NCBI RefSeq assembly: GCF_030758315.1
Contig: NZ_CP132336.1
Span: 4,431,001 to 4,495,000 of the forward strand
Length of the DNA stretch: 64,000 bases
Reading direction: 5' to 3'
DNA from: Pararhizobium sp. IMCC3301
GTDB taxonomy: Bacteria; Pseudomonadota; Alphaproteobacteria; Rhizobiales; GCA-2746425
Made by a program: the position numbers and the translations under genes. The notes beneath the pieces are model-generated. The model did no database searches. It saw only the letters and a program-made list of their open reading frames with translations, and was not told the DNA's origin. This document shows, in pieces, positions 5,428 through 22,466 of this stretch. Every line of letters starts with the position of its first letter. The stretch's first letter is position 1.

Positions 5428-6933
5428 CTAGGGAACTTCGATGGCCCGTGGTTTGACGTCTTCAAGCAGGTAGCGGTGCGCATCCTTGTGGGTCATGTAG
5501 CCGGGGGGCGGGAACTGCATTTCAAGCTCCCACGCATCGCCGGTTTCTGCCATGTTTTTCAGGACCCGTGCATCCAGCTCGGCCTGAATGGCGGCATAGG
5601 CCGGATCGTTGACCAGATTGTTGGTCTCGTCCGGGTCGTTGGTCTGGTCGAACAGATAGAGCGGCCGGTCCTGTTTGCGCACATAAAGCCATTCCCTGGT
5701 GCGGATGCCGCGCTCCGGCTTCACATGGCGTTCGCTGCGGCCGCCGAAATCGGCCTTCATCAATTCAAACTGGACATGGTCACGGGTCGGTGCATCGCTG
5801 CTGCCCTCAAGCAGCGGCAGGTAACTCGTCCCCTGCACCCCATCGGGAATGGCGATGCCGCAGGTTTCAAGGATCGTCGGCATCGTATCCACCGCCACAT
5901 CGACAAGTGAGGTCACGCGTTTGCCAGGGGCAAAACGGGCAGGATAGCGGATGAACAGCGGCACATGCGCCGATGTGCGGTAGGCCTGACGCTTGATCCC
6001 GCAATAAGAACCGTGCTGGCCCAGCATGTCTCCATGATCTGAAAAGAAGATGACAATGGTGTCGTCAGCCAGCCCGTTTGCATCCAGCCAGTTCAGCAAC
6101 CGGCCGACATTGTAATCGACATTGGAGATCATGCCGTAATATTCGGCGGTGAATTTACGGATCTGCCATTCTGTTTCGATCTCCGGGTCCATACCCTCGA
6201 ACTTGTCGGCCTTGCTGCGCTCGCCAAACCGCCCGTCGCCGTCATAATCCAGCGCGGTCCGCTCCTGCGCCCGCCGTTTCTGCAACTCGGGATTGGGTGT
6301 GCCCATGGGCAGTCTGACCTTGTCCGGGTCATACATCGTGCGCCAATGCTCCGGCATGTCCATCGGGAAATGCGGCGGGCCGAAGCAGACATAGGCGTAG
6401 AACGGATCATCACCGCCCGACCCGGCGACTTTCTCCATGAATTCGATGGTGTGGTCGGTCTGAAAATCCGGCTCGTAACGTTTGCAATGATAGGGCTGGT
6501 CGGTGTCGCGATAGTACACCGCATCCATATACTGATGACCGCGATTGTAGCCGACGAAGTGGTCAAATCCCATGCGGTCGGGGCCGGGTGGAACAAAGCC
6601 GGGTTTGGGGCCGCCAAAAAGATGCCATTTACCAATATAACCAGAACTGTAGCCGCTGTCGTTGAGACAGGGTGCGAGCGATGGCTGGTCGGCACTGATC
6701 GGGAAATGATTGGAATACAGACCGGCCTGATGGGCATATTTTCCGGTCAGCAGCGAGGCCCGGAATGGCGTGCAAAGCGGATAAGAAGTATAGGCGTTTT
6801 CAAACATCACGCCTTGATTGGCGAGCCGGTCGAGATGCGGCGTCTTGACGTCCGGATTGCCCGAGCAGCCCATACAGTCATACCGCATCTGGTCAGCATA
6901 GATCATCAGAATGTTGGGTTTTTTGACAGACAA
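5428..6933 (-). CDS. Type I (formylglycine) sulfatase, cytoplasmic
   Basis: This 501-residue arylsulfatase-family enzyme hydrolyses a sulfate ester. Metal-binding residues lie in IYADQ near the N-terminus. The sulfatase signature begins LCTPFRASLLTG with Cys54 in C-x-P-x-R, the cysteine that is converted to formylglycine. GKWHLFG and FFSDHGDMLGQHG supply further catalytic and metal residues. There is no signal peptide, so it should act in the cytoplasm. The start is TTG at 6933, 5 bases after GAGGG. It lies downstream of a second sulfatase but behind its own 125-base gap holding two operator-like repeats, so it may have its own promoter. Maturation is expected from the FGE encoded at 14903-15928. 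The substrate is unknown. Confidence 0.93.
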   Translation of the reverse strand: MSVKKPNILMIYADQMRYDCMGCSGNPDVKTPHLDRLANQGVMFENAYTSYPLCTPFRASLLTGKYAHQAGLYSNHFPISADQPSLAPCLNDSGYSSGYIGKWHLFGGPKPGFVPPGPDRMGFDHFVGYNRGHQYMDAVYYRDTDQPYHCKRYEPDFQTDHTIEFMEKVAGSGGDDPFYAYVCFGPPHFPMDMPEHWRTMYDPDKVRLPMGTPNPELQKRRAQERTALDYDGDGRFGERSKADKFEGMDPEIETEWQIRKFTAEYYGMISNVDYNVGRLLNWLDANGLADDTIVIFFSDHGDMLGQHGSYCGIKRQAYRTSAHVPLFIRYPARFAPGKRVTSLVDVAVDTMPTILETCGIAIPDGVQGTSYLPLLEGSSDAPTRDHVQFELMKADFGGRSERHVKPERGIRTREWLYVRKQDRPLYLFDQTNDPDETNNLVNDPAYAAIQAELDARVLKNMAETGDAWELEMQFPPPGYMTHKDAHRYLLEDVKPRAIEVP

Positions 6934-7003
6934 TTTGCCCTCGCTTTATTTGGCTCACCTAACCGGTCTGGCTGATGCAAGGTAGTTTAACAGCGCAGCA
7001 AAA

Positions 7004-7053: not shown

Positions 7054-7058
7054 ACGTT

Positions 7059-8549
7059 TCAAGCCGTGCTCGGACTGTTGATGCCACGGACATACTGCCG
7101 GGTTGCGTCGAAAATCGGCTGATAGTCCCAATGATAGCCTTCGCTGCCCTCTAATGCGCTGTGAAGAAACATGCGGGTTTTCTTGCTGTCGACTGCACGC
7201 GCCGTCACCGTTTCGACGTCGTAGCGGTCAAGAAGACGCGCGCACAGTTCATCCTTGATGCCGGCATGGGCAGGATCGCCGGTCAGATCGTGCTGTTCAG
7301 CCGGATCGTCGGCAATATTGAACAAAACATCCGCGTGGTTGCGGGTCCAGACATATTTCCAGTCGCCCCTGCGGATGCAGAGCCAGGGCTCGATGACGCC
7401 CGGGCCGAAATATTCCGAGATTGCCTCATCCTTGCGGCTGTCACCTTCACCGGTCAGCAGACTGAGGAAACTGGCGCTGTCAGCGCTGCCATAGCGGTCA
7501 GAGTCCGCTTTGGCACCGCCAAGTTCAGCCAGTGTCGGGCAAAGATCGGCAAGTGTGACACATTCGGTGACCCGTCCCGGCTGGAACCGGCCGGGGGCAT
7601 GAAAGATCATCGGCACCTGCAGCGAGCCTTCGTAGAAAGTGCGTTTGAACCACATGCCGCGCTCGCCCAGCATGTCGCCGTGATCACTGGTGAAGACAAT
7701 CACTGTGTCGTCATAAAGGCCGAGATGCTTCAGCTCTGCCACCAACTCTCCCAGATAATCGTCGAGATGGCTGATCATCGCATAATAGGCGCGGCGCGAC
7801 AGCTTTATGGTTTCCTCGTCGGGCGGGTATTGGTCGATCCCGTGATGGATTTTCAGCCACTCTGTCGTGGGGTGCGGATCGGCGTCCTCGGGAATTTCCG
7901 GCAATGATATCTCGACACCCTCATAACGGTCCCAATAGTCCGGGATCGACTGATAAGCCTCATGCGGCTGGGTGTAGGAAACATGCAGGAAGAAGGGTTG
8001 CTCCGGCTGGGCCAGCGCCTCGTGGCGGAGAAATTCAAGGGCACGGAACTGCACTTCGGCGTCATAGAGAAGCTGGTTATTGGTTCTGCAAAGGCCGCTG
8101 ACTTCGAGTTTCTTGGTTGATGTTCCGAGCCGGTGTTCGGGCCCTTTGGACCAGTCGATGGTCCAGTCGAAACCGGACGGATACATGTCCGTCGTCAGCC
8201 GCTTGTCGAAGCCATGAAGCTGATCGGCACCGATGAAGTGACATTTGCCCGAGACCACACAACGGTATCCTGCAGAGCGCAGGAAATGCATCATCGTCGG
8301 GATTTCGGAGCGAAATTCTGCGCCGTTGCCCCAGACTTCATGGCTTGATGGCTGTCGGCCGGAGAACTTCGAGGCCCGCGAAGGACAACACAATGGCGAG
8401 TTCGAATAGGCATTTTCGAACACCACGCCGTCACGCGCCAAAGCGTCAAGGTTTGGTGTCATGGCCTGGCCACCGGGCCGGTAGATCGACAGCACGAAAG
8501 CCGTCAATTGGTCGGCTTCAATCAGAAGAATGTTGGGCTGTTCGGTCAT
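7059..8549 (-). CDS. Type I sulfatase, choline-sulfatase-like, cytoplasmic
   Basis: The 496-residue product carries the sulfatase signature LCCPSRASKFSGR, with Cys54 as the formylglycine precursor and Arg58. EADQL near the N-terminus and SDHGDMLGERGMW give the metal and active-site residues. The latter segment and the following FYEGSLQVPMIFHAPGRF resemble choline-O-sulfatase (BetC) closely, but the transporter context argues for an anionic sulfate ester rather than choline sulfate. No signal peptide is present. The ATG overlaps the stop of the PdxA-like gene by 4 bases, so it is the fifth gene of the tctCBA-pdxA-sulfatase operon reading leftward. FGE at 14903 would activate it. Confidence 0.92.
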   Translation of the reverse strand: MTEQPNILLIEADQLTAFVLSIYRPGGQAMTPNLDALARDGVVFENAYSNSPLCCPSRASKFSGRQPSSHEVWGNGAEFRSEIPTMMHFLRSAGYRCVVSGKCHFIGADQLHGFDKRLTTDMYPSGFDWTIDWSKGPEHRLGTSTKKLEVSGLCRTNNQLLYDAEVQFRALEFLRHEALAQPEQPFFLHVSYTQPHEAYQSIPDYWDRYEGVEISLPEIPEDADPHPTTEWLKIHHGIDQYPPDEETIKLSRRAYYAMISHLDDYLGELVAELKHLGLYDDTVIVFTSDHGDMLGERGMWFKRTFYEGSLQVPMIFHAPGRFQPGRVTECVTLADLCPTLAELGGAKADSDRYGSADSASFLSLLTGEGDSRKDEAISEYFGPGVIEPWLCIRRGDWKYVWTRNHADVLFNIADDPAEQHDLTGDPAHAGIKDELCARLLDRYDVETVTARAVDSKKTRMFLHSALEGSEGYHWDYQPIFDATRQYVRGINSPSTA

Positions 8550-9559
8550 ACTGGCATCCCCTTGGCAGTCAGCGCGGCGCGGCGCATCAGTTTCAGAGCG
8601 TTGACCATCGGCGTCTCCGAGGCTTTTCCACTGCCGGCAATGTCATAGGCTGTGCCGTGGGCCGGGGTGGTGATCGGATAGGGCAGACCGCCGAAATAGG
8701 TGACGCCTTCGTCAAACCCCATCAACTTCGTCGCGATCTGGCACTGGTCGTGATACATTGAGACAACGCCGAGATAGTCTTCCTGCCGGACGGTCAGAAA
8801 GATCGTGTCCGGCGGATAGGGACCGGCAACGTTGATCTGGTGTTGTCTGGCGTCTTCAACAGCGGGGCCGATGGCATCGATTTCCTCGCGCCCGAACATG
8901 CCGCCATCGCCATTGTGCGGGTTCAGGCCGGAAACCGCGATCTTCGGGTTGTCGTAGCCAAAACGCCTGAGCTCACGGTCGAAATACCGTATGATCCTGA
9001 GGACGTTTTCGCGTGTGATATAGCTGGGCACCTCGGCGATGGACACGTGCGAGGAGACGCGCGTCGTCCACAGATGTCCAATTGTGTTGATCTCGGCAGC
9101 AGGCCCCGTTTCACCCATATAGTCGGCGATATAGGCTTTGTAGCCTTCGAAATTCGATCCGCCCATTTTCAGGGAAACCTTGTTGACAGGCGCGAAGACG
9201 AAACCGTCGATGATACCGTCCTTGTAAAGATCTGCGGCATAGCGGCCGAGCGCCAGGTCAAGCGTACCGGCCGCCTTGCTGCTTTCGCCAAAGCCGACGC
9301 CAGCAAAATCAGTCGGGTTACAGTCAACCAGAGCGATGGGGCAGGGGTCGTTGATGGCCTCTTCGACGCTGTCGAAGGTGGTCAGATCCGGCTCGGTGCC
9401 GGCCACCTTGCAGCCGGATTCGTAGAGCGCGCGCGGCCCCACGATCAGACGTTTGACACCTTGCGTGATGTCCTTGTGCGTCAACGATCTGGCTACGAGT
9501 TCCGGACCGATTCCCCCGGCGTCGCCGAGCGTCGTGAAAATTACCGGCGTATCAGTCAT
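8546..9559 (-). CDS. PdxA-family NAD-dependent dehydrogenase (PdxA2-like)
   Basis: This 337-residue protein belongs to the PdxA family, which oxidatively decarboxylates beta-hydroxy acids such as 4-phospho-hydroxythreonine, D-erythronate/threonate 4-phosphates or cis-diol carboxylates. Seen are the N-terminal GDAGGIGPE motif and the three metal-binding histidines in SSHVSI, LNPHNGDGG and PAHGTAYDIAG. The second of two adjacent ATGs (9559) is chosen because AGGAGG sits 5 bases upstream of it. It overlaps the end of tctA and lies inside a transporter-sulfatase operon, so a catabolic role is far more likely than pyridoxine synthesis. The exact substrate is not deducible. Confidence 0.85.
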   Translation of the reverse strand: MTDTPVIFTTLGDAGGIGPELVARSLTHKDITQGVKRLIVGPRALYESGCKVAGTEPDLTTFDSVEEAINDPCPIALVDCNPTDFAGVGFGESSKAAGTLDLALGRYAADLYKDGIIDGFVFAPVNKVSLKMGGSNFEGYKAYIADYMGETGPAAEINTIGHLWTTRVSSHVSIAEVPSYITRENVLRIIRYFDRELRRFGYDNPKIAVSGLNPHNGDGGMFGREEIDAIGPAVEDARQHQINVAGPYPPDTIFLTVRQEDYLGVVSMYHDQCQIATKLMGFDEGVTYFGGLPYPITTPAHGTAYDIAGSGKASETPMVNALKLMRRAALTAKGMPV

Positions 9560-11063
9560 CATCGCCTCCTATCATAGCTGCCTGCCGCTCGCGGATCGAG
9601 CCAATTGCCCTGGTAATGAACGGCATTGCGATCCCCAGCACCGAGAGTGCCAGGAACACCAGCGCGATCGGTTGTTGCAGGATCACGAACAGGTTGCCGT
9701 CATAAATCAGGAAGGACTGCTTCAGCGAGGTCTCGATCAGCCCGCCGAGGATCAGCCCCATGACGATCGGTGCCGGAGCGTAGCCATGGCGCTTCATGAA
9801 GTATCCGAGGAACGAGAAGATCAACATCAGCCAGACATCGAACATGCTCTGTTGCAGGCTGTAGGCACCGAGCGCTGCCAGCACAAAAACCATCGGCCAC
9901 AGGATCGTCGTTGGAATCAGCGTGATCTTGCTGAAATATTTGGCACCCAACATGCCGAATACCAGAAAACAGATATTGGCACCAAGCATCGCAGCGAAGA
10001 GGCCGGCCAGAAGGTCTGGCTGCTCGACGAACAATTGCGGGCCAGGCCGCAGACCAAGGATCAGCATTGCCGTCAGGATAATCGCGGTCGAACCGCCGCC
10101 GGGAATGCCCAGCGCCAGTGTCGGAACCATCGTACCGCCGGTCGCCGCGTTGTTGGCGGATTCTGGAGCGGCGATACCTTCGATTGCGCCTTTGCCGAAT
10201 TCGGCCTTGTTTTTTGACCAGCGCCGTTCCTCATTATAGGCGATCATCGCGGCAACCGTACCGCCTTCAGCCGGCAGAATGCCGATGAATACGCCAATGC
10301 CAGTGCCGCGCAGGATGGTTTTCCAGATGCGTTTGAAATCCTCTATCGAGGGCAGCTTTGCCACGGCATCTGCAATCAGGTTCCGCGTCTGACCAGCCAG
10401 AGTGGCCTGACGCAGCAACTCGCCGCCGGCAAAAATGCCGATCATCATCTGCACCGGCGCAATGCCCTCGGCAAGGTCGGCCTGGTTGAAGGTAAAGCGT
10501 TCAATTCCAGTGGCGATGTCGGTTCCAACGATCGCCAGCAGAACGCCGAAGGCGCCGCCGATCAGGTTCTTGAACACTGATTGACCGCTGATAGAAGCCA
10601 GCATCGACATGCCGAAGATTGCCAGTGCAAAATACTCCGCAGGCCCGAAATTATAGGCCAGTCGTGCCAGCAGCGGAGTCGCGATGACCATCACGATGAT
10701 CCCCATGATCCCCGCAATGGCGCTTGAAAAAGTCGCGATACCAAGCGCGCGGCCGGCCTCACCGCGTTGTGCCAGCGGATAGCCGTCGAATGTGGTGGCC
10801 GCTGCTGCTGCGGTTCCGGGCGTGTTGATGAGAATAGCCGTAATTGAGCCGCCATAGATCGTCGCACAATAGACGATTCCGGTGAGTGCGATGCCGGTGA
10901 CTGGCTCCATGCGCACGACAAAGGGCAGTAGCAGCGCGATCAGGATCACTGATCCGAGGCCGGGCAGGGCGCCGACAATCACGCCGACGAATGTGCCAAC
11001 GATGATCAGAACGATGTTGTAAGGGTCCAGCAAAAACTGGATGACCATCATGAGGGAGTCCAT
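9552..11063 (-). CDS. tctA: Tripartite tricarboxylate transporter, large membrane subunit TctA (set 1)
   Basis: A 503-residue, highly hydrophobic protein with the TctA hallmarks: VGVIVGALPGLGSV near the N-terminus, YGGSITAILINTPGTAAAAATTFDGYP, and the internally repeated IGILPAEGGTVAAMIAYNEERR and GIPGGGSTAIIL elements. About 11-12 membrane spans are expected. TctA is the sodium- or proton-driven channel of TTT importers and takes carboxylates from the TctC binding protein. The start at 11063 is preferred over the longer frame because of the upstream AAGG and the fit to family N-termini. It follows tctB closely and overlaps the PdxA-like gene by 8 bases. Confidence 0.95.
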   Translation of the reverse strand: MDSLMMVIQFLLDPYNIVLIIVGTFVGVIVGALPGLGSVILIALLLPFVVRMEPVTGIALTGIVYCATIYGGSITAILINTPGTAAAAATTFDGYPLAQRGEAGRALGIATFSSAIAGIMGIIVMVIATPLLARLAYNFGPAEYFALAIFGMSMLASISGQSVFKNLIGGAFGVLLAIVGTDIATGIERFTFNQADLAEGIAPVQMMIGIFAGGELLRQATLAGQTRNLIADAVAKLPSIEDFKRIWKTILRGTGIGVFIGILPAEGGTVAAMIAYNEERRWSKNKAEFGKGAIEGIAAPESANNAATGGTMVPTLALGIPGGGSTAIILTAMLILGLRPGPQLFVEQPDLLAGLFAAMLGANICFLVFGMLGAKYFSKITLIPTTILWPMVFVLAALGAYSLQQSMFDVWLMLIFSFLGYFMKRHGYAPAPIVMGLILGGLIETSLKQSFLIYDGNLFVILQQPIALVFLALSVLGIAMPFITRAIGSIRERQAAMIGGDDD

Positions 11064-11088: not shown

Positions 11089-11577
11089 TCAGGGCAGGGG
11101 AACGTTGAGCAGAACGACAAACAGCAGATAGACGAAGGCCAGAAAGCCGCCGAAGCTGAGCCCCATCAACAGCCAGCGACGTTCTCCCCACAAAAACGCC
11201 AGGCCCGGACAGAACAGGATCAGCGTCGGAAAGGTGCCGATGAGCGGCATCAGCATGAGAAAGCCGATTAGCACCAGGCCGGTCAGGTAAACGATTCTGG
11301 CGATGCGCTTGTGCGGTTTCAGCGCCTCAGCTTCCGCAGGCTTCAGCCGGATCGCCTTCAGTGCCTGAAACACTGCGAGTAGGAACATCACGAAAATTAC
11401 AGCCCGGGGAAACACCGTTGGCTGGATACCCTGGGCGAGAATTGGAGGCACTTCTTCGAACGTATAGGTGACGCCGAAGAGGAACGCGGCGAAAGCCATG
11501 ACAAACAGCGACTCAAACAACAATTCCTTGTCGACTGCTCGCCCGGTGCCATTGGCAGTTTTTTGTTCAGATGACAT
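11089..11577 (-). CDS. tctB: Tripartite tricarboxylate transporter, small membrane subunit TctB (set 1)
   Basis: The 162-residue product has four predicted membrane segments (around LLFESLFVMAFAAFLFGVTY, TVFPRAVIFVMFLLAVFQAL, IVYLTGLVLIGFLMLMPLIG and the C-terminal LLMGLSFGGFLAFVYLLFVV), as TctB subunits do. The start at 11577 follows GGGAGGG at a normal distance. It sits between tctC and tctA in the usual order. TctB sequences are poorly conserved, so the call relies partly on position. Confidence 0.9.
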   Translation of the reverse strand: MSSEQKTANGTGRAVDKELLFESLFVMAFAAFLFGVTYTFEEVPPILAQGIQPTVFPRAVIFVMFLLAVFQALKAIRLKPAEAEALKPHKRIARIVYLTGLVLIGFLMLMPLIGTFPTLILFCPGLAFLWGERRWLLMGLSFGGFLAFVYLLFVVLLNVPLP

Positions 11578-11650
11578 CAAGTTACCCTCCCCATTTCCAG
11601 ATCGCCTCATTGGCCCGCGACAGGCCCAGCCATCTCTAAAACCTGTTTGT

Positions 11651-11689: not shown

Positions 11690-12661
11690 CTATTTGGAAA
11701 TCAGGCGCAGCTCTTCGGCTACAGCCTGGTATCCTGCATTCAGGCGAACCAGCTGCTTGGCAAAAACCTCGCTTCCGGCGATGCTGGCGGAAGTCTGACC
11801 GGCACCTTCGAGATATTTCAGGTAGCCCTCGGAATTCATGGATTCGATCAGCGCGGCTTCCAACTGGTCTACCACCGGCTGCGGCGTGCCCTTCAGAACG
11901 CCAATACCGCGAACCGTGGCCAGGTCGAGATCAAGGCCGACCTCATGGCCGGTCGGCACGTCGGGCGATGAATCGACTCTTTCTTCGGTCAGAACCGCCA
12001 GAGGTACGACTTCACCGGCCTTCCACTGCGACTCGAACTCGTCCAAGTTCAACAGAGCGACATCAAGGTTTCCGTTGACCAAATTGATGACAATTTCACC
12101 GGACTTCTCGAATGGCACATAGACTTGCTTGTTCATGCCGATTTCTTTGCTCATCAAAAGTGCCTCCACATGCGGGTTTCCGCCGACATTGGTTCCGCCC
12201 TGTTTGACCGGGCCGCTCTTGGCCGCGTCGATAAATGCGGCGGCATCGGCATATTTTCCCGCCTTCACGACAATATAGTTGGGATCAATCGTGCCGCGCG
12301 CCAGCGGAACAATATCATCGAAGGACAGATCCACCGTGCCGCGCATGATCGTCAGCAGTGTTCCTGCATTGACGATGAAAAGTGTCTGCCCGTCAGCAGG
12401 TTTGCCGCTGACATATTTCAGGGTGTTTGTCGCAACTCCGCCGGTTTTCGACATATGGATGAAATCGGTGCCGAGGATTTCGCCGGCCTTTTCCGTCGCA
12501 AAGCGCAGAAAGATGTCCGAACCGCCGCCGGGACGTGAATTGTTGATCACTTCAATAGGCCCATTCGGAAAATCCTGAGCCACGGCACGTTCGGGAATCG
12601 CCTGGATAGCGAATGTTGCGGCAAGGCCGAGAAGCGCCAACTTCCTGATATTGTTTAGCAT
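11690..12661 (-). CDS. tctC: TTT periplasmic substrate-binding protein TctC (set 1)
   Basis: A 323-residue Bug/TctC-family protein: a signal peptide (MLNNIRKLALLGLAATFAIQ, cleavage after ERAVAQ), then FPNGPIEVINNSRPGGGSD, the region that binds a substrate carboxylate through backbone and water contacts. The family captures di-, tri- and aromatic carboxylates in the periplasm for TctAB. The start codon follows GGGGGAGGAC. It is the first gene of the leftward operon tctC-tctB-tctA-pdxA-like-sulfatase, and its promoter region is shared with the divergent dehydratase gene, with a direct-repeat operator between them. Confidence 0.93.
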   Translation of the reverse strand: MLNNIRKLALLGLAATFAIQAIPERAVAQDFPNGPIEVINNSRPGGGSDIFLRFATEKAGEILGTDFIHMSKTGGVATNTLKYVSGKPADGQTLFIVNAGTLLTIMRGTVDLSFDDIVPLARGTIDPNYIVVKAGKYADAAAFIDAAKSGPVKQGGTNVGGNPHVEALLMSKEIGMNKQVYVPFEKSGEIVINLVNGNLDVALLNLDEFESQWKAGEVVPLAVLTEERVDSSPDVPTGHEVGLDLDLATVRGIGVLKGTPQPVVDQLEAALIESMNSEGYLKYLEGAGQTSASIAGSEVFAKQLVRLNAGYQAVAEELRLISK

Positions 12662-12820: not shown

Positions 12821-13996
12821 ATGACCGCAATCAAATCTGTTCGCACCCGTGTGTGGAATTGGACCGGGCCCACAGTACCGCCCTCCGGGAATTTCTGTAC
12901 CAATGCTTCGGACGCATTGTGGATGAAGGGTGATGCGATGTCTTCGTTCCGATTTCACCAGTGGCTGACCTGCGAGGTCGAGACCGAGGACGGAACAATT
13001 GGCATCGGCAACGCGGCACTCGCTCCGACCGTCGTCAAAAAAGCCATAGACGACTGGTACGCGCCTCTTGTCATTGGCGAGGACCCGTTCGACTACGCTT
13101 ACATCTGGGAAAAGATGTACCGCCGCACCCACGCCTGGGGGCGCAAGGGCATCGGCATGACGGCGATTTCGGCAATCGACATCGCAATCTGGGACCTGAT
13201 GGGCAAGCTCACCGGCAAACCGGTCTTCAAATTGCTCGGCGGTCGCACCAAGGAAAAGATCCCGGTCTATTACTCCAAACTCTATGCCGGCCCTGTTGAG
13301 GACATGCAGCGCGAGGCTGAAGCGGCGATGAAGAACGGATATACTGCCTACAAATCCCGGTTCGGGTATGGACCCGGGGACGGCATGGCTGGCATGCGCG
13401 AAAACCTGAAGCGGGTTGAAGCTGTGCGCGAGGTGATCGGCTACGACAACGACCTCATGCTTGAATGCTATATGGGCTGGAACCTCGACTACGCCAGGCG
13501 GATGCTTCCCAAGCTGGCGAAATATGAGCCGCGTTGGCTGGAAGAACCTGTCATTGCCGACGACGTCCACGGCTATGCCACGCTGAATGCCATGAACATA
13601 GTTCCGATTTCCGGCGGCGAACACGAATTTTCCGTCATCGGTTGCGCCGATCTGATCCGCAGCGGCGCAGTCAGTGTGTTGCAATATGACACCAACCGCG
13701 TCGGTGGCATTACCGCTGCGCAGAAGATCAACGCCATCGCCGAGGCGTTTCAGGTGCCGGTCATCCCGCATGCGGGACAGATGCACAATTATCACCTCAC
13801 CATGGCAAATGTGAATTGTCCGATCAGCGAGTATTTTCCTGTGTTTGATGTCGAGGTCGGCAATGAGCTGTTTTATTATATTTTTGAAGGCGATCCTGAA
13901 GCAGTGGACGGATTCCTGCAGCTTGATGATGACAAGCCGGGCCTCGGCATCACTATCTCTGACAAGCACCTTGAGCATTTCCAGATCACGGAGTAG
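12821..13996 (+). CDS. Enolase-superfamily sugar-acid dehydratase, L-rhamnonate-dehydratase-like
   Basis: This 391-residue protein is a mandelate racemase/enolase superfamily member. Segments such as [40 protein letters not shown] and [11 protein letters not shown] parallel L-rhamnonate dehydratases. Acidic metal ligands are seen in [15 protein letters not shown] and SGGEHE, and the catalytic histidine region is [15 protein letters not shown]. The reaction would be removal of water from an aldonate to a 2-keto-3-deoxy acid. It starts divergently from tctC and is followed, after 194 bases with nothing recognisable, by the GntR regulator and FGE. The substrate could be another aldonate or a desulfated sugar acid. 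Confidence 0.85.
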
Positions 13997-14902: not shown

Positions 14903-15928
14903 ATGACGAAACCCGGCGAGATCTCACAATGGGCCACGAAACGCTCGCCGCAGCCTCTGAAGACAGAGCGCGGCGGCGCGTCATTGCCTGAACATTCCCC
15001 TTGCTGCGGCGCTCCACCGCGTAAGACCGACAGAATGCAGCCGTCTGAGCATCCCATTGCTTTTGCTGCGGCACCTGGAGTGTCCCGATCCGGTATCGTC
15101 GACATTCCCGGCGGGCAAGGCCACCTTGGCACCAACTCGCCCGAACTACCCATCGACGGTGAGGCACCTTTGCGAACTAGATCAATAAAGCCGTTCCGCA
15201 TCGACGGCGCCGCCGTGACCAACGCGCGCTTTCGCGAATTTGTTGAGCAGACCGGCTACAGGACAGAAGCCGAAACCCTCGGCGATTCCTTCGTTTTCGA
15301 AGCGTTGCTGCCGAAGGATGCGCCGGATGGGCCACGCGTGGCGGTCGCTCCTTGGTGGCAGCCACTGCAAGGCACCAGTTGGCGATGCATTTATGGCCCG
15401 GGAAGCGAAGACGCCTGTGACCCCGAACACCCCGTGGTGCATGTGAGCTGGAATGACGCGAATGCCTTTGCCAGTTGGGCCGGTGGCCGATTGCCAACTG
15501 AAGCCGAGTGGGAACATGCAGCGCGCGGCGGATTGGGCGATGTCCGTTTTCCCTGGGGCGACCATGAGCCGAACGACGAGGATTTCTTTCCCTGCAACAT
15601 CTGGCAGGGTGTCTTTCCAAAGACGAACCTGACCCTCGATGGATTCTTCGGCACTGCGCCGGCCCGCTCCTTCGAGCCGAACGGCTTCGGCCTTTACAAC
15701 ATGGTCGGAAACGTCTGGGAGTGGACGTCGCAACCCTTCAAGGTGCAGTCACTGAAGAAATCCGTGCAACAGGCCCATGTCGGCAAGCATGGCTTCAAGC
15801 TGAGCAAGGGCGGGTCATTCCTGTGCCACGCAAGCTATTGCTACCGTTATCGGATCGCAGCGCGCAGCGGCACATCGCCCGACAGTTCCACATCGCATCA
15901 CGGGTTTCGCCTGGTCTACGATGTGTAA
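14903..15928 (+). CDS. Formylglycine-generating enzyme (sulfatase-maturating, SUMF1/FGE family)
   Basis: The 341-residue protein shows the FGE-sulfatase fold pattern: IVDIPGGQGHLG, PVVHVSWNDANAFASWAGGRLPTEAEWEHAARGG (quoted here only as the family signature region, about residues 175-210), NMVGNVWEWTSQPF, and GGSFLCHASYCYRYR. The last contains Cys308 and Cys313, matching the two copper-binding catalytic cysteines of true FGEs, unlike many catalytically different SUMF1-domain proteins. The enzyme uses oxygen to convert the sulfatase active-site cysteine to formylglycine. It follows the GntR gene directly and serves the three sulfatases in the island. The first about 60 residues are unusual, so a later start (for example 15035) is possible. 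Confidence 0.93.
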   Translation: MTKPGEISQWATKRSPQPLKTERGGASLPEHSPCCGAPPRKTDRMQPSEHPIAFAAAPGVSRSGIVDIPGGQGHLGTNSPELPIDGEAPLRTRSIKPFRIDGAAVTNARFREFVEQTGYRTEAETLGDSFVFEALLPKDAPDGPRVAVAPWWQPLQGTSWRCIYGPGSEDACDPEHPVVHVSWNDANAFASWAGGRLPTEAEWEHAARGGLGDVRFPWGDHEPNDEDFFPCNIWQGVFPKTNLTLDGFFGTAPARSFEPNGFGLYNMVGNVWEWTSQPFKVQSLKKSVQQAHVGKHGFKLSKGGSFLCHASYCYRYRIAARSGTSPDSSTSHHGFRLVYDV

Positions 15929-15940
15929 GTCGCAGGTGAT

Positions 15941-16867
15941 TCACTGTGGTCGTTGCGCCGCAATGCCACGGAACCGGGCGAATTCGGCACTGACCGCCTC
16001 CAACAAGGCAGATGTGGCGGGTTCCATTTCCTGCTCCTTGTTCACCAGGGCGCCATAGGTCAGACTGACCTGTGGCGTCCATTCCCGTGTGACCACATCG
16101 TCAGACGGGAACGCCGTTGCGCTGAACGGATCGCACACAGCAATGCCAAGCCCGGCGGCTGCCATCCGGCAGCAGGTGATCGCGGAGGACGATTCGATTG
16201 ACACGGACACTTCCCGTCCGATCCGTTTCAACTCCGCATCAATGCGAGTGCGCAAAGGTTGACGACTGGGAAGAATAAGGACTTCACCGTCGATGAGCTC
16301 AGGTGTGATGACCCGCTCCCGTGCAAGGCGGTGGCCTTTGGTCATGACGGCTACCACTTGGGTTTCGACCAGTGGGATCGTTTTCAGGGCAGGATGTTTT
16401 GTCGGCAAAAGCGCAAGAGCAAGATCGATGTGCCGGGCAGCGACCCAGTCTTCAATATCGAGTCTGTGCCTTGGCTCAAGTGCCAGCCGGGCGTCGGGCT
16501 CCCGTTCCATAAACCGCGCAATCGCTGCCATCAACGGTGCGCTGTTGATCAAGGGTGGAGTGGCCGCGATGCGCAGGCGCCGACGGGCTTGATTGCCGAT
16601 ATCGCGGGCGATGGTCTCGATCTCGTCGAGCCCTGCAATGGTCGGCTCGATTGTGCGAAAGAATTCAATTCCCTGCTGCGTAGGTGTTGTTGCACGCCCG
16701 CTGCGGCGGTTAAAAAGCCGCAATCCGACAGCATGTTCAAGAGCAGAAATCTGCTTGCTGATGGCCGGCTGGGTTAGATTCAGCCGAGTGGCGGCAACAG
16801 TTACGCTGCCTGTGACCATGACTGCGTGAAACGCTCTGAGTTGGCGCAATCCAAGTCGATTCGACAT
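15941..16867 (-). CDS. LysR-family transcriptional regulator
   Basis: A 308-residue LysR-type regulator: the N-terminal helix-turn-helix reads LRQLRAFHAVMVTGSVTVAA then LNLTQPAISKQISALE, and the C-terminal two-lobed effector domain starts near residue 90 (RRRLRIAATPPLINSAPLMA). The start at 16867 is preferred because AGGGA lies 8 bases upstream. It is convergent with FGE and divergent from the third sulfatase. The 123-base divergent gap contains a T-N11-A palindrome (16890-16906) typical of LysR control, with related sites in front of the sulfatase gene at 6933. It probably senses an intermediate of the sulfated-substrate pathway. Confidence 0.92.
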   Translation of the reverse strand: MSNRLGLRQLRAFHAVMVTGSVTVAATRLNLTQPAISKQISALEHAVGLRLFNRRSGRATTPTQQGIEFFRTIEPTIAGLDEIETIARDIGNQARRRLRIAATPPLINSAPLMAAIARFMEREPDARLALEPRHRLDIEDWVAARHIDLALALLPTKHPALKTIPLVETQVVAVMTKGHRLARERVITPELIDGEVLILPSRQPLRTRIDAELKRIGREVSVSIESSSAITCCRMAAAGLGIAVCDPFSATAFPSDDVVTREWTPQVSLTYGALVNKEQEMEPATSALLEAVSAEFARFRGIAAQRPQ

Positions 16868-16889
16868 AGTCATATTCCCTGCAAAATAC

Positions 16890-16906
16890 ATTCCAATATG
16901 GAATGA
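16890..16906. promoter_or_regulatory. LysR-type palindrome CATTCC-AATAT-GGAATG
   Basis: CATTCC (16890-16895) and GGAATG (16901-16906) form a perfect 6-bp dyad with a 5-base spacer, fitting the T-N11-A rule for LysR sites. It lies just upstream of the LysR start and 85 bases upstream of the divergent sulfatase. The same core occurs at 7034-7053. Confidence 0.6.
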
Positions 16907-16935: not shown

Positions 16936-16990
16936 TTTTGACTGGGGTAGGTTGGCTGCAATGGATGACGTTGCCTGGGAGGAGTTTACC

Positions 16991-18502
16991 GTGGAAGATA
17001 ACAGACCGAACGTCCTGTTGATCGTAGCCGATCACTGGGCGGCGGAACATCTGGGATTTGCTGGCAATTCCTCGATCCTGACCCCTGGACTGAATGAATT
17101 GTCGGCCTGCGGTACGCGCTATACCAACGCCTATTCGGAATGCCCGGTCTGTATTCCCGCGCGCCGCACCCTGATGACCGGAATGAGCCCGAAATCCCAC
17201 GGCGACCGTGTTTTCAGGGACGATCTGCGCATGCCCGATGTCACCACGATGGCACAGGCGTTTCGCGATGCCGGCTATCAGGCGGATGCGGTCGGCAAAC
17301 TTCACGTCCATCCGCAACGTGACCGGATTGGTTTTGACAGCGTCCTGCTGGATGACGAGGGCCGGCCGCAATGGGGCACACTCGACGATTATGATATTTA
17401 CCTCGGCGATCAGGGGCTGGCAGGACGTCAATTCGACCACGGTATGTCGAACAATCAGTATAACTGGCGCCCCTGGCACCTGGCTGAAGAACATCACGCC
17501 ACGGCATGGGCCGGCCGCAACATGGCGCGCACAATCAAGCGGCGCGATCCGGGCAAACCGTCCTTCTGGTATCTGGGCTTCCGCCATCCACATCCGCCGC
17601 TGGTGCCACCGCAGGCGTTTCTCGAACTCTATCGCGACGTTGAGCTGGAACAGCCCTATATCGGCGATTGGGCCAGGAACCCCGATGACTTGCCCTTCGC
17701 CATTTCAGCATTGCTGAGCCGCACAAATCTCTACACTCATGACCAGCTGATGGCGGCAAAGAAGGCTTTCTATGCACTGTGTACCCAGATCGACTATCAG
17801 ATCCGTTATCTGATCGGCACGCTGCGTCTGGAAGGATTGCTCGACAACACCATCGTGATGTTTACTTCCGATCACGGCGATATGCTGGGTAACCACGATA
17901 TGGCGGCAAAGCGGGTGTTTTACGAAAGTTCTGCGAATATCCCGATGATTCTGTCGCCCAACAAGGGCAATCAGAAAGCAGGAGAGGGTGTGATTGACGA
18001 GCGTCTGGTGACGTTTGCCGATGTGATGCCGACGCTTCTTGACCTGTGCGACATCGACGCACCCGATACGGTCGATGGCGTCTCCATGGTTGGCACGGCG
18101 CAGCGCGGGCACATTTACGGGGAATGCGGCGAGGACGATCATTCCAGCCGCATGATCCGCGACGGCCATCACAAGCTGATCTATTATCCGGTTGGCGATC
18201 ATTGCCAGCTTTTCGACATGATCGATGACCCGCACGAAATGTCCGATGTTGCACGCCAGCCGGAACATGCCGACACGCTGCAGCGGCTTCAGCAAATCCT
18301 GATTTCCGAAATGTACGGCGTCGATCTGGACTGGATTGAGGACGGGGCGCTTGTCGGCAAACCTGACCGGGACTACTCCTGGGCACCGCACCGCAGTTTG
18401 AACTCGCAGCGCGGCGACGGCTGGCCGCCGTCGCCCAAAGTCGAGATTCCGCAAATCGAGTGGACCAGAGAACGTCCGTCCGGCACAGCAAAAAACGGTT
18501 GA
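16991..18502 (+). CDS. Type I sulfatase, cytoplasmic (third in the island)
   Basis: A 503-residue sulfatase when started at GTG 16991, which follows GGGAGGAG by 6 bases; an ATG frame from 16952 lacks such a site. The signature is VCIPARRTLMTG with Cys54 as the formylglycine precursor. LLIVADHW, GKLHVHP and FTSDHGDMLGNHDM hold further active-site residues. There is no signal peptide. It diverges from the LysR gene and heads a rightward operon with the second TctCBA transporter and an alpha/beta hydrolase. The overall family matches the two other sulfatases, but the sequences between motifs differ a good deal, so substrates may differ. Confidence 0.93.
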   Translation: MEDNRPNVLLIVADHWAAEHLGFAGNSSILTPGLNELSACGTRYTNAYSECPVCIPARRTLMTGMSPKSHGDRVFRDDLRMPDVTTMAQAFRDAGYQADAVGKLHVHPQRDRIGFDSVLLDDEGRPQWGTLDDYDIYLGDQGLAGRQFDHGMSNNQYNWRPWHLAEEHHATAWAGRNMARTIKRRDPGKPSFWYLGFRHPHPPLVPPQAFLELYRDVELEQPYIGDWARNPDDLPFAISALLSRTNLYTHDQLMAAKKAFYALCTQIDYQIRYLIGTLRLEGLLDNTIVMFTSDHGDMLGNHDMAAKRVFYESSANIPMILSPNKGNQKAGEGVIDERLVTFADVMPTLLDLCDIDAPDTVDGVSMVGTAQRGHIYGECGEDDHSSRMIRDGHHKLIYYPVGDHCQLFDMIDDPHEMSDVARQPEHADTLQRLQQILISEMYGVDLDWIEDGALVGKPDRDYSWAPHRSLNSQRGDGWPPSPKVEIPQIEWTRERPSGTAKNG

Positions 18503-18579
18503 ATTAATGCGAAGCGGGGCCGCCTCATTCCGCTTCTTAAAAACAGTGAGGTAGCAGCTTCCAGGAGGAGGAATTAAAA

Positions 18580-19554
18580 ATGAAGCATAGATTGAATCGC
18601 AGAAGCGCCACACAAATTCTGGCGGGCACGATGATTGCCCTGGCCGGTTTCGCAACCGCTCCCGCCCTCGCTGAATACCCTGAAAAGCCAATCAACCTTG
18701 TAATCGGATTTTCCGCAGGAGGCGGCACCGATCTGACCGGTCGCGCCTTGGCGGTACACCTGCGCAATGTTCTCGGCAAACCCGTTGTCGTCGTCAACAA
18801 ACCTGGTGCCGCCAGCATGATTGCGGCCAAATTCGTGGCCGACAGCCGACCGGACGGATACACTCTTTGGTATGGTTCAGTGGGCACGATGATTCTGGCG
18901 CGGGAATTGGAAAAGTCGGAACTTGGAGTTGACACCGATTTCGTTCAGGCAGGCACAACCACGCGTCTGGTGCCCGCCATTGCAGTTCCTGTCGAAAGCC
19001 CCTACCAGACGCTGCAGGATCTGCTTGACGACGCCAAGGCGCGGCCGGGCGAATTGCGCTGGGCCCATGGCGGTGCCGGATCGGCGTTCATGGCCTCTGG
19101 TGTCGGATTCATCGAGGCCAACGGTCTGGAAGTGCAGGCGGTGCCATTCAGCGGGACGGCGAAAGCGCGCCTCGCCATTATTGGCGGTCAGGTTGATTTC
19201 GGCATCCAGAACATGAATGCCAGCATGAATTTCGGCGAAAAGATGCGCATCCTCGGGGTTTTGCGCGGGTCGAAGCAAGAATTGATCGACAAGAGCGTGC
19301 CGGCCGCAGGTGAACTGGGCATCGACTACATCGCCATCGACAGCCCGGTCGGCATTTTGGCTCCGGCCGGAACCCCGGAAGATGTGTTGAAAATCCTTGC
19401 ATCTGCTGTCGCAGAGGCTGAAACCAGCGACGCCTACCGTGAAGCTATGGAAAAGCTGCAATTTCCAATCGCCGTGGTGCCGCAATCCGAGACCGCAGCA
19501 CAGGCCGGTGCCATCCTTGAAAACGTCCGCAGAATCCTTCCCAAACTGAAGTGA
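18580..19554 (+). CDS. tctC: TTT periplasmic substrate-binding protein TctC (set 2)
   Basis: A 324-residue Bug/TctC protein with a signal peptide (ending ATAPALAEYPEKP), then INLVIGFSAGGGTDLTGRAL, the carboxylate-contact region. The start is supported by AGGAGGAGG about 7 bases upstream, one of the strongest ribosome sites in the window. It follows the third sulfatase by 77 bases and precedes tctB and tctA. It is clearly different in sequence from the set 1 TctC, so the two importers probably take different carboxylates. Confidence 0.93.
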   Translation: MKHRLNRRSATQILAGTMIALAGFATAPALAEYPEKPINLVIGFSAGGGTDLTGRALAVHLRNVLGKPVVVVNKPGAASMIAAKFVADSRPDGYTLWYGSVGTMILARELEKSELGVDTDFVQAGTTTRLVPAIAVPVESPYQTLQDLLDDAKARPGELRWAHGGAGSAFMASGVGFIEANGLEVQAVPFSGTAKARLAIIGGQVDFGIQNMNASMNFGEKMRILGVLRGSKQELIDKSVPAAGELGIDYIAIDSPVGILAPAGTPEDVLKILASAVAEAETSDAYREAMEKLQFPIAVVPQSETAAQAGAILENVRRILPKLK

Positions 19555-19563
19555 TGAACGCTT

Positions 19564-19593
19564 CCGCAGCGGTCCGTGTGTTGGCCGCTGCGG
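19564..19593 (+). terminator. Intercistronic hairpin between tctC and tctB (set 2)
   Basis: CCGCAGCGG (19564-19572) and CCGCTGCGG (19585-19593) are perfect reverse complements around a 12-base loop, with no T-tract. Its place between tctC stop and tctB start favours the tctB start at 19626 and suggests mRNA stabilisation or partial termination favouring TctC. Confidence 0.5.
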
Positions 19594-19625
19594 GACAAGG
19601 GCGGCATCAGACTGAAAGAATTGTC

Positions 19626-20117
19626 ATGGACCGGAAAATCGATTTCATAACTGTGTTGCTGGCGCTGGTTGTCGGTCTGGTCTTCCTTTGGCAGGCCTGG
19701 GCTATTCCTGTGGGAGCGAGCGATTCCATCGGCCCCAGGCTGGTGCCGTTGATCATCGCGATGTCGGCAATCGGTCTGGCTGGCGTGCAGCTGTATTTTG
19801 ATTTTCACGCAGACGGGGTGGCAGGGACCGAACTGGCTGGAGACGACCATATAAGCATACGCAGCCTGTTTTTACAGGCCGGGCCTCTCATCCTTGCTGC
19901 TGTTCTCTATGGGCAGATGATGGTTTGGTTCGGATATCTTGTGGCGACATTTGTCGCCGCGCTGCTGGTGTTCCGGCTCTACGCAAATTCGCTGGCCCTG
20001 ACCCTCGTCAATTCCACTGCAGGTTCGCTGATCTTCTACATCGCTTTCATCAAGGGGATGGGTATCTATGATCCGCCGGGCACGATCCTGGACATCTCCG
20101 GTTTCCTGACCTGGTAG
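19626..20117 (+). CDS. tctB: Tripartite tricarboxylate transporter, small membrane subunit TctB (set 2)
   Basis: A 163-residue protein with four predicted membrane spans starting MDRKIDFITVLLALVVGLVF, normal for TctB. An upstream GTG/ATG at 19551-19554 in the same frame would run translation through a strong hairpin and add a charged, non-membrane leader, so 19626 is preferred even though its ribosome site is weak. It lies between tctC and tctA in the standard order. Confidence 0.88.
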   Translation: MDRKIDFITVLLALVVGLVFLWQAWAIPVGASDSIGPRLVPLIIAMSAIGLAGVQLYFDFHADGVAGTELAGDDHISIRSLFLQAGPLILAAVLYGQMMVWFGYLVATFVAALLVFRLYANSLALTLVNSTAGSLIFYIAFIKGMGIYDPPGTILDISGFLTW

Positions 20118-20127
20118 GAGCGGGCAA

Positions 20128-21657
20128 ATGGATATTCTCAACGGCTTCGTTTACCTGTTCAGCAACCCGACCGCTGTGGCCTTTGTGTTTCTCGCGGCCC
20201 TTGTTGGTGTCATCGTTGGCGCGATACCGGGACTGACTGCGGCTGCCGCTATCGCCATGCTGGTTCCCGTGACCTTCTATCTGGACCCGCTGACGGCCCT
20301 GGCATTTCTGTACGTGATCGGAAAATCCGGCCGCTTCGGCGGATCAATCTCGGCCATTCTGTTCAATACTCCTGGTACTGCGGCGTCAGCAGCGACGCTG
20401 ATTGACGGCTATCCGATGACCAGGCGGGGCCAGGCTGGCAAGGCGCTTAAGACGGCAAGCATAGCGTCCGTATTCGGCGATACCGTTGGCGAGCTGATCC
20501 TGATTTTCGGTGCCGTCGCCATTGCCTCGGTAACGCAACAATTCGGTCCTCCGGAATATTTCGCGGTCTATATGATGGCTTTTATCATCATCAGTTCCGT
20601 AACCGGCGATTCAATTATCAAGGGGCTGCTGAGCACGGTCCTGGGTATTCTTGTGGCGTTGATCGGAATTGATCCGATTTCGGCAGAGCCACGGCTCGAC
20701 TTCGGGCTGCTTGAGTTTCAGTCGGGCCTTGCACTGATCCCGCTGCTGCTGGGGATTTTCGTCCTCTCCGAGCTGGCGATCCAGGTTGAGATCGTAGCCA
20801 GGGGCGGTGTGTTGAAGGAGCGTGAAATCAGCGATGATCCGGATGCTTCAAGATTCACGCTGCCGGAATTTCGCCGTTGCATCCCCGTGATGCTGCGATC
20901 ATCGCTGATCGGTGCATTCATAGGCATTCTGCCTGGCCTTGGCTCGGCAGTGGCAGGGTTCGCAGCCTACGGCGAAGAGAAACGACGCGCAAAGGAGCCA
21001 GAAAAGTGGGGTACGGGTATCGTTGAGGGCGTCGCAGCGCCAGAATCGGCCAACAACGCCGTATCTGGCCCGACCATGATCCCGCTGCTGGCACTCGGTG
21101 TCCCCGGCAGCACCATCGCCGCTATCCTGATCGGCGTCTTCCTGATCCACGGAATTCCGATCGGCCCGTCCATATTCGATACTTCGCGCGATCTGATCTT
21201 CGGGCTGTTTGCGGCCGGTCTGGTTGGAATAGTGCTGTACGGAATTATCGGCTATTACGGCGGACCGCTGATCGGCCATGTTATTGCCCTGGTGCCACCA
21301 CGGCTGATCTATCCTTACATCTTCCTGACCTGCATTGTGTCGGCCTATTCCGCCCGCACCAGCGTTTTCGATGTCTTCATCATGAGTGCGGCGGGCCTTT
21401 TCGGCTACCTCATGCGCAAGGTCGATTTTTCGCCTGCCGCTTTCATCATCGCCTTCGTGTTGGCGTCAGGTGCCGAAGAGGCGTTCCGCCAGTCTCTGCT
21501 GTTGTCGAGCAGCGGCTGGCTGGTCTTTTTTGAACGGCCCTGGGCACTGGTATTTTTCGCATTCGCGGTGCTTGTTTCCGGGCAGCGCATCTGGAAGAAG
21601 ATGCGCCCGTCCCACGACCCCAAACCGGTGCGGCCCTTTGATGACCTTTCGGAATGA
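20128..21657 (+). CDS. tctA: Tripartite tricarboxylate transporter, large membrane subunit TctA (set 2)
   Basis: A 509-residue polytopic protein with the TctA motifs VGVIVGAIPGLTAAAA, FGGSISAILFNTPGTAASAA, IGILPGLGSAVAGFAAYGEE and GVPGSTIAAILIG. GGAGCGGG upstream supports the ATG at 20128. It forms the transport channel fed by the set 2 TctC. Its stop overlaps the hydrolase start by 4 bases, so the hydrolase belongs to the same mRNA. Confidence 0.95.
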   Translation: MDILNGFVYLFSNPTAVAFVFLAALVGVIVGAIPGLTAAAAIAMLVPVTFYLDPLTALAFLYVIGKSGRFGGSISAILFNTPGTAASAATLIDGYPMTRRGQAGKALKTASIASVFGDTVGELILIFGAVAIASVTQQFGPPEYFAVYMMAFIIISSVTGDSIIKGLLSTVLGILVALIGIDPISAEPRLDFGLLEFQSGLALIPLLLGIFVLSELAIQVEIVARGGVLKEREISDDPDASRFTLPEFRRCIPVMLRSSLIGAFIGILPGLGSAVAGFAAYGEEKRRAKEPEKWGTGIVEGVAAPESANNAVSGPTMIPLLALGVPGSTIAAILIGVFLIHGIPIGPSIFDTSRDLIFGLFAAGLVGIVLYGIIGYYGGPLIGHVIALVPPRLIYPYIFLTCIVSAYSARTSVFDVFIMSAAGLFGYLMRKVDFSPAAFIIAFVLASGAEEAFRQSLLLSSSGWLVFFERPWALVFFAFAVLVSGQRIWKKMRPSHDPKPVRPFDDLSE

Positions 21658-22466
21658 AGCGGATATCAGCAAATCGCCTGACATTCATGGTCGGCATTGC
21701 GGGAACGGGGCCACGGCTGCTATTTCTGACCGGCAGCAGCGGGGATCTGCGAAACGCCAACACACCGCTTAAAGCGTCTCTCACGCGGCATTTCGAGGTG
21801 CTGACATTCGATCAACGTGGCATGGGTCAAAGCGACAAACCCGATCTCCCGTACACAATGCGGGATTACGCGCAGGACGCCGCAGCCATTCTGGACGCTG
21901 TGGGCTGGGAGGCAGCCTGTGTTGCCGGATATTCCTTTGGTGGCATGGTGGCGCAGGAACTGGCGCTGGGCTGGCCGGAGCGAGTCACGCGGCTGGCGCT
22001 TGTGGCAACGACTGCAGGAGGCAAGGGTGGCGCTTCCTATCCGATCCATGAGCTGGACGCACTGGCCGGTTCAGATCGAGCGCGCAGAGGCCTGGAGATC
22101 ACGGATCTCAGCTTCACACCCGAGTGGCAGGCGGCCCACCCTGAGGAAGCCAAAGCCCGCATCGATGCAAAAATGGCGACCGGCTTGGGTTTTGCCGCAG
22201 AGCTTGGCGCGGCGACCGGCCGGCGCCAGCAACTGGCGGCGCGGGCGGCCCATGACACTTATGACCGGCTACCGTGGATTGCGGTTCCAACGCTGGTTCT
22301 GGGCGGGCGCAGCGACGGACAGGCACCGTTGGCACCCCAGAAAGCGATGGCGCAGCGAATTCCGGGAAGCCGGTTTGAAGAAATCGACGGAACCCACGAG
22401 ATGCTATGGCGGGATGATGCGATCTTTGCCCGCATCGCCCGTTTCTTTTCAGAACCAGCGGGATGA
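21654..22466 (+). CDS. Alpha/beta hydrolase (3-oxoadipate enol-lactonase-like)
   Basis: A 270-residue alpha/beta hydrolase with the nucleophile elbow GYSFGG (Ser94), an acid in LGGRSDGQAPL and the histidine in IDGTHEMLW, a complete triad. The oxyanion-side motif is the LTGSSGD region and FDQRGMGQSDKP follows. Similar proteins open lactones or cleave esters of small carboxylic acids; a lactonase acting on a desulfated sugar or aromatic lactone would fit the island. ATG overlaps the tctA stop (ATGA), so it is translationally coupled. It is the last intact gene of the operon; a dehydrogenase remnant follows. Confidence 0.85.
   Translation: MKRISANRLTFMVGIAGTGPRLLFLTGSSGDLRNANTPLKASLTRHFEVLTFDQRGMGQSDKPDLPYTMRDYAQDAAAILDAVGWEAACVAGYSFGGMVAQELALGWPERVTRLALVATTAGGKGGASYPIHELDALAGSDRARRGLEITDLSFTPEWQAAHPEEAKARIDAKMATGLGFAAELGAATGRRQQLAARAAHDTYDRLPWIAVPTLVLGGRSDGQAPLAPQKAMAQRIPGSRFEEIDGTHEMLWRDDAIFARIARFFSEPAG

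Follow-up and report, generated by a model that had tools for sequence, protein, structure and literature searches.

A candidate island for import and intracellular desulfation of sulfated carboxylic acids in Pararhizobium sp. IMCC3301

There are 15 genes at positions 5428-22466 of the stretch of Pararhizobium sp. IMCC3301 DNA analysed here (contig NZ_CP132336.1, positions 4,431,001 to 4,495,000), whose full 64,000 nucleotides we refer to as the window. This island encodes three sulfatases, a formylglycine-generating enzyme (FGE) and two tripartite tricarboxylate transporters (TTT). Its likely role is the catabolism of small carboxylic acids that carry sulfate. The leading candidates are sulfated acid sugars (aldonate or tetronate esters) and the corresponding lactones. 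From the genomic evidence we infer, with good support, that sulfated sugar acids are imported by TTT carriers and are then desulfated in the cytosol. Four features that can be read from the sequence itself carry this proposal, namely the gene content, the intact motifs, the N-termini free of export signals and the conserved linkage of these genes. The island genes are listed below by window coordinates and strand, and each was assigned by its Pfam match unless another basis is given.

5428-6933, minus strand: sulfatase 1, S1 type with an SGSH_C end, a TTG start codon and a CTPFR motif
7059-8549, minus strand: sulfatase 2, choline-sulfatase-like, with proline at the position of the choline-recognition glutamate
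8546-9562, minus strand: PdxA-like dehydrogenase without the PdxA phosphate-site residues
9552-11120, minus strand: TctA large permease of importer 1
11089-11610, minus strand: TctB small permease of importer 1
11690-12661, minus strand: TctC periplasmic receptor of importer 1
12821-13996, plus strand: enolase-superfamily protein, candidate acid-sugar dehydratase (from NCBIfam models below cut-off and solved enolase-superfamily chains)
14137-14901, plus strand: GntR/FCD regulator
14903-15928, plus strand: FGE with both cysteines (C308, C313)
15941-16891, minus strand: LysR regulator, divergent from sulfatase 3
16952-18502, plus strand: sulfatase 3, with a CIPAR motif
18580-19554, plus strand: TctC periplasmic receptor of importer 2 (also matches solved TTT receptors)
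19551-20117, plus strand: TctB small permease of importer 2
20128-21657, plus strand: TctA large permease of importer 2
21654-22466, plus strand: alpha/beta hydrolase that resembles enol-lactonases and esterases and shares 4 bases with TctA (Pfam and NCBIfam)

Both sets of TctC, TctB and TctA exceed the Pfam cut-offs and thus represent two complete TTT carriers. This agrees with the original prediction, whose alpha/beta hydrolase and two regulators (GntR and LysR) are also found by Pfam where it had placed them. Three transcription units are likely, because the gaps within them range only from -32 to +125 bases. These are TctC-TctB-TctA-PdxA-sulfatase 2-sulfatase 1 on the minus strand, and GntR-FGE and sulfatase 3-TctC-TctB-TctA-alpha/beta hydrolase on the plus strand. 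The enolase gene is located 140 bases ahead of the GntR gene.

Sulfatases 1, 2 and 3 match the sulfatase domain PF00884 with 204, 173 and 144 bits (cut-off 25). Their motifs read CTPFR, CCPSR and CIPAR, which places the cysteine for conversion to formylglycine at positions 54, 54 and 67, respectively. By this domain and the convertible cysteine of the CxPxR motif, all three are assigned to the S1 (formylglycine) type and are predicted to hydrolyse sulfate esters. The FGE matches PF03781 with 240 bits (cut-off 23.3), and it retains C308 and C313, which we take to be the active-site cysteine pair and which are invariant in all five aligned FGEs, as was expected from the claim that both catalytic cysteines are present.

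The Pfam sulfatase domain begins at residue 6 of sulfatase 1, residue 5 of sulfatase 2 and residue 19 of sulfatase 3, and therefore there is no room for a signal peptide in any of the three predicted proteins, as had originally been proposed. Export signals were judged by inspection of the N-terminal sequence rather than by a signal predictor, and hydrophobicity values for sulfatase N-termini are unreliable where the core was not located. An export-type N-terminus is found in none of the 32 sulfatases inspected among the 33 of this genome. For 29 of these, the motif is reached by residue 71, and the other three are long open frames with a methionine just before the core; the 33rd sulfatase (G000:2371162), which the BLAST reference set did not label, lies outside both this inspection and the tree discussed below. 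An arrangement in which exported sulfatases feed a carboxylate importer was rejected on these grounds. Bryobacterales relatives of sulfatase 1 (~33%) have signal-like N-termini. Elsewhere in the genome, one of the 32, a 406 amino acid sulfatase-like protein (L032:6159-7379), is encoded between two normal sulfatases and carries the motif SGPVR, in which serine replaces cysteine, and this protein is possibly inactive.

The related PehA and phosphonate monoester hydrolase (PMH) enzymes suggest another activity, wherein sulfatases 1-3 would cleave phosphodiesters or phosphonate esters. The PehA model does give scores of 212, 133 and 147 bits, and PMH structures are among the PDB matches, but all three scores are far under the cut-off of 900. 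Moreover, sulfatase 2 exceeds the cut-off of the choline sulfatase model TIGR03417 (497.2 versus 433.45), the only one of the three to do so. Sulfatase 3 scores best with an NCBIfam arylsulfatase model, under its cut-off (411.8 versus 481), and its top PDB chain is named a choline-sulfatase. Family resemblance alone cannot decide between sulfate- and phosphate-ester hydrolysis, although we view phosphoester cleavage as very improbable.

Choline sulfatase was itself tried as the role of sulfatase 2. According to one report (PMC5870055), Glu386 in Sinorhizobium meliloti numbering is the choline-recognition residue of choline sulfatase. The aligned position is glutamate in all three annotated choline sulfatases compared, and proline both in sulfatase 2 and in its counterpart at a related locus (L124, see below). 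Neither bet genes nor a choline transporter are present among the island genes by Pfam and NCBIfam. On the basis of this proline and the gene context, the choline sulfatase role was rejected.

The association between sulfatases and TTT carriers extends well beyond the window. There are 33 sulfatase, 30 TctA, 35 DctM and 2 FGE genes in this genome, where 36 hidden Markov model rows were merged to give the 33 sulfatase genes (75 rows to 72 genes in the genus mates). A total of 18 of the 33 sulfatases are located within 5 kb of a TctA gene, compared with 2.4 expected, and this value was reached in only 3 of 5000 circular shifts (TctA ends were set at start+1260 for this distance test). For DctM of the tripartite ATP-independent periplasmic (TRAP) transporters, which served as a control, the corresponding number is 4 of 33, compared with 3.2 expected. 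Viewed from the transporters, a sulfatase is located no more than 5 kb away for 14 of the 30 TctA genes versus 3 of the 35 DctM genes. Among four genus mates, the sulfatases within 5 kb of TctA number 8 of 18, 12 of 27, 12 of 25 and 0 of 2; the observed value was reached in 5 and 6 of 5000 shifts in the two single-contig mates, the sole ones tested in this manner. The pairing seen in the island is not local chance. Conserved linkage, which had been put forward as a check on the original prediction, is found genome-wide, in three of the four genus mates and in other taxa. Neither this check nor the inspection for export signals contradicted that prediction.

On a tree of 32 sulfatases from this genome, 8 changes are required to explain the TTT label (18 rows), and starred branches force 5 or more of them, such that the pairing is spread over several clades. 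The label is mildly clustered (36 of 500 shuffles were as low). Several other sulfatases in the genome adjoin ABC sugar importers, and desulfation inside the cell may thus be a general habit of this bacterium. A second sulfatase island (G000:C1:2190000-2216000; L038 and L186) carries LtnD, two TctA-containing units, two sulfatases, an enolase (87% to that of the window), a dihydrodipicolinate synthase family (DHDPS) gene, GntR, PdxA and an aldehyde dehydrogenase (ALDH). The second of the two FGE genes (L049, G000:C1:2256300-2258679) adjoins a TRAP large permease, and two further sulfatases lie on either side of another TRAP permease gene (L046, G000:C1:3986003-3992628).

A scan of named genomes with the sulfatase 3 alignment gave 50 loci, or 48 after two weak ones (L169 and L170) were dropped. 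Genes at these loci were labelled by BLAST against a reference set, such that an unlabelled gene is not proof of absence. A TTT subunit is located within 5 kb of the sulfatase 3 homologue in 21 of the 48 loci, including 11 of the 17 homologues with at least 69% identity to sulfatase 3 of the window and 10 of the remaining 31 (nine with TctC only, one with TctC and TctA). These are lower bounds because contig ends cut many loci. A full-length sulfatase 1 (at least 45%, within 10 kb) accompanies sulfatase 3 in 7 of the 48.

The arrangement of the window recurs in a Rhodobacteraceae metagenome-assembled genome (L124; percentages for L124, L125 and L127 are identities to the window's own proteins). 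This locus encodes sulfatase 1 (81%), sulfatase 2 (79%), PdxA (57%), TctA (76%), TctB (59%), TctC (67%), GntR (65%), LysR (60%) and sulfatase 3 (82%), wherein the orders LysR-sulfatase 3 and sulfatase 1-sulfatase 2-PdxA-TctA-TctB-TctC are retained. Neither FGE nor importer 2 was seen at L124. Phaeobacter sp. J2-8 (L125) has LysR (65%), sulfatase 3 (82%), TctC (72%), TctB (50%) and TctA (82%) of importer 2 and the alpha/beta hydrolase (63%), and this right-hand operon is followed by LtnD, OtnK, an aldolase, OtnI and sulfatase 1 (81%). An uncultured Granulosicoccus (L127) carries LysR, sulfatase 3, the same TctC, TctB and TctA (67, 49 and 82%) and sulfatase 1 (64%). Paracoccus seriniphilus has sulfatase 3 (82%) with LysR (55%) at the same place, followed by a different TTT (TctC 29%, TctA 37%) and then ltnD-otnK-aldolase.

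Two further features of these loci are worth recording. Beside the L125 operon, and divergent from its sulfatase 3 genes, lies another TTT operon that includes an alpha/beta hydrolase, an LtnD piece and a TauE/SafE exporter gene (L125:4030-4860); the TauE/SafE protein is a candidate for the export of sulfite or sulfate. In two other loci a metallo-beta-lactamase (MBL) fold hydrolase is encoded between TctA and sulfatase 1 (L128:4112-4993 and L129:7627-8508). The top solved match of the L128 protein is an MBL arylsulfatase, the top model of both is RNase Z, below cut-off, and a second sulfatase type in the same operon is possible.

The genes adjoining sulfatase/TTT loci, both Ltn/Otn genes and the enolase-DHDPS-PdxA-ALDH module, suggest that the carbon product is an acid sugar. 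According to PMC12540250, bacterial conversion of L-threonate to dihydroxyacetone phosphate takes three or four steps. In L125, OtnK and a 3-oxo-tetronate-4-phosphate decarboxylase pass their NCBIfam cut-offs, as does LtnD in L122; under cut-off in L125 are OtnI (284.8 versus 325) and LtnD in the frame as read (272 versus 350). There are two LtnD proteins in the Pararhizobium genome that pass the cut-off, both at sulfatase/TTT loci (L038 and L042), and the L042 gene follows, at a distance of 12 bases, a sulfatase from a different clade. Lactonase-type genes also neighbour these loci, including the alpha/beta hydrolase (window and L125), a 7-bladed lactonase (L121) and SMP-30 (eight Bryobacterales/Terriglobia loci), where the MBL-fold gene of L128 and L129 was left out of the count. 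This is a weak hint that the substrate includes a lactone. Our best guess for the substrate is an acid sugar, or a lactone of one, in the form of a sulfate ester.

Sulfated aromatic acids such as phenolic acid sulfates could be proposed instead, with the alpha/beta hydrolase serving as the enol-lactonase of an aromatic pathway. In the PDB comparison, TctC of importer 2 matches solved TTT receptors, terephthalate-binding ones among others, and the top NCBIfam model for the hydrolase is 3-oxoadipate enol-lactonase. However, the hydrolase score is far below cut-off (122.1 versus 255.85), Pfam and NCBIfam show no ring-cleavage gene in the island, and acid-sugar genes (LtnD, OtnK, DHDPS, ALDH, SMP-30) recur next to relatives. 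Aromatic substrates thus appear improbable.

The original prediction also described a rhamnonate-dehydratase-like enolase and a PdxA-like dehydrogenase. Both genes are present, but the scores are under the curated cut-offs, and these specific names are best read as family resemblances only. The PdxA-like protein scores 240.2 versus 290.35 with TIGR00557 and 203.2 versus 583 with the D-threonate-4-phosphate dehydrogenase form. Residues H136, T137, N283 and R292 (E. coli numbering), presumably the PdxA phosphate site, are replaced by Tyr, Lys, Thr and Ile, whereas K274 and three metal His are retained, and therefore a 4-phosphate compound is probably not the substrate of this enzyme. The same four residues are lost in the PdxAs of the PdxA-enolase-DHDPS module. 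The window protein belongs to a separate subgroup (40-43% to the module PdxAs, 58% to that of L124). The enolase matches 13 NCBIfam models, all below cut-off (L-rhamnonate dehydratase, 203.1 versus 393), lies near three solved chains whose names are putative or go no further than the superfamily, and has 85-89% identity to proteins from Rhodobacterales plasmids, five in number. Sulfatases 1 and 2 and PdxA match nothing in plasmid records at 60% identity or above, and sulfatase 1 has no match among viral contigs.

One possibility is that the island combines independent neighbours, where the TTT carriers with the enolase and PdxA handle unsulfated acid sugars and the sulfatases scavenge sulfur from unrelated esters imported otherwise. 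The PdxA-enolase-DHDPS module is indeed found with no annotated sulfatase beside TRAP (Ruegeria pomeroyi, Paracoccus albus), TctCBA (Qingshengfaniella) and a lone TctC (Variovorax). Two genus mates (G003 and G004) carry TctCBA-enolase-DHDPS-GntR-PdxA with no sulfatase inside and an ABC-linked sulfatase ~2.2 kb beyond. Likewise, PdxA is not generally tied to sulfatases, because 20 PdxA-relative loci of 3-4 kb each from 385 genomes of the class include no sulfatase (0 of 20) and TctA in only 3. In the window, however, the sulfatase 2 gene overlaps that for PdxA, which in turn overlaps TctA, and this order is retained in L124. Furthermore, the linkage recurs across different sulfatase clades and different TTT carriers. 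We consider it unlikely that the two functions are independent.

Like these PdxA-relative loci, several other observations weigh against a shared role in the catabolism of sulfated acids. Pfam identifies no sulfate exporter among the 15 island genes, and Pfam and NCBIfam show no LtnD, OtnK or other L-threonate gene there; the one OtnK with aldolase in the genome is ~180 kb from the island. Sulfatase 1 has no match at E<=1e-100 in 384 other genomes of the class (a search that had the genus mates outside it), and sulfatase 3 reaches 45% at best in the genus mates. Among the sulfatase 3 homologues, 27 of 48 have no labelled TTT subunit within 5 kb, some having ABC or major facilitator superfamily genes. 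Finally, the enolase and ALDH of L124 are seen as short pieces only, and thus the enolase may lie outside the island core.

Despite these points, desulfation of imported sulfated acids best fits the island as a whole, and we infer the direction of transport, the sulfated nature of the substrate, the order of steps and the acid-sugar identity as follows. Each TctC receptor would capture an anionic ester on the periplasmic side, and its TctAB permease would bring this ester into the cell unchanged. FGE would turn the active-site cysteine of the sulfatases into formylglycine, allowing sulfatases 1-3 to take off the sulfate in the cytosol, and the alpha/beta hydrolase would open a lactone or ester. 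The freed acid sugar might then undergo oxidation or dehydration by the PdxA-like dehydrogenase and the enolase or, in relatives, pass through LtnD-OtnK-aldolase-OtnI, with GntR and LysR switching the units according to substrate. A broader and much more tentative scheme is that TTT carriers have repeatedly been wired to cytosolic sulfatases, with about one pair per sulfated acid. Under this doubtful scheme, the sulfatase 3 clade would open a route from a sulfated C4 acid sugar or lactone to L-threonate and dihydroxyacetone phosphate, and the co-occurrence of sulfatases 1 and 3 would reflect a doubly sulfated substrate. Sulfated L-threonate or threonolactone and ascorbate 2-sulfate would be examples of substrates.

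Outside the island, the window encodes a 1945 amino acid hybrid histidine kinase (35554-41391) with GAF, HisKA and receiver domains and a HAMP score that implies several repeats, adjoined by a second kinase-type gene (33516-35573). A further organic-acid uptake locus (43014-48111) consists of a TRAP receptor (DctP), a GFO/IDH/MocA oxidoreductase and a DctM permease. There are no tRNA genes in the window, a repeat search gave diverged matches only, and a scan for promoters and terminators found 3 and 8, where shuffled sequence gave 3.6 and 7.5.

Much of the sulfur from marine sources and from hosts is believed to occur as small organosulfates, a fraction that is still poorly resolved and for which few importers are known. 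If the pairing of TTT carriers with cytosolic sulfatases is the rule, a single genome would offer many uncharacterised TctC receptors and sulfatases that could be tested as pairs for a shared substrate, and the operon linked to L-threonate indicates with which class of molecules to begin. In addition, 'choline-sulfatase' labels could mislead in genomes of this kind.

The island shares S1 sulfatases and FGE with the exported sulfatase systems for sulfated glycans, but differs in that its sulfatases lack an export signal by inspection. Genes of L-threonate/D-erythronate catabolism (LtnD, OtnI, OtnK, OtnC) are located next to sulfatase 3 in L122, L134 and L113 and, in L125, next to an operon of the right-hand type, whereas they lie outside the island; no sulfated substrate for this pathway is reported in the parts of the literature consulted. 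The PdxA/enolase/DHDPS module of Ruegeria pomeroyi, Qingshengfaniella alkalisoli and Paracoccus albus has an enolase 87-89% identical to that of the island and a PdxA relative alongside, but no annotated sulfatase, and DHDPS was not found among the island genes.

TTT/Bug carboxylate systems, such as those for terephthalate, use the same TctC, TctB and TctA Pfam families, whereas each carrier of the island adjoins sulfatases without export signals. No description of this pairing was found in a search of open-licence papers, two of which (PMC7029141, PMC6383258) mention TTT and sulfatases, each in its own context. Use of choline-O-sulfate through BetC, in Sinorhizobium meliloti and others, likewise involves a small sulfate ester and an S1 sulfatase, and choline sulfate is taken up whole. 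The BetC loci examined adjoin a choline transporter and bet genes rather than the TTT found in the island. The original premise must therefore be narrowed, because import followed by a sulfatase without a signal peptide has a precedent in choline sulfate, and it is the TTT carrier that looks new. The island would then represent a variant of this known strategy, fed by TTT carriers, apparently for acids, and multiplied within genomes.

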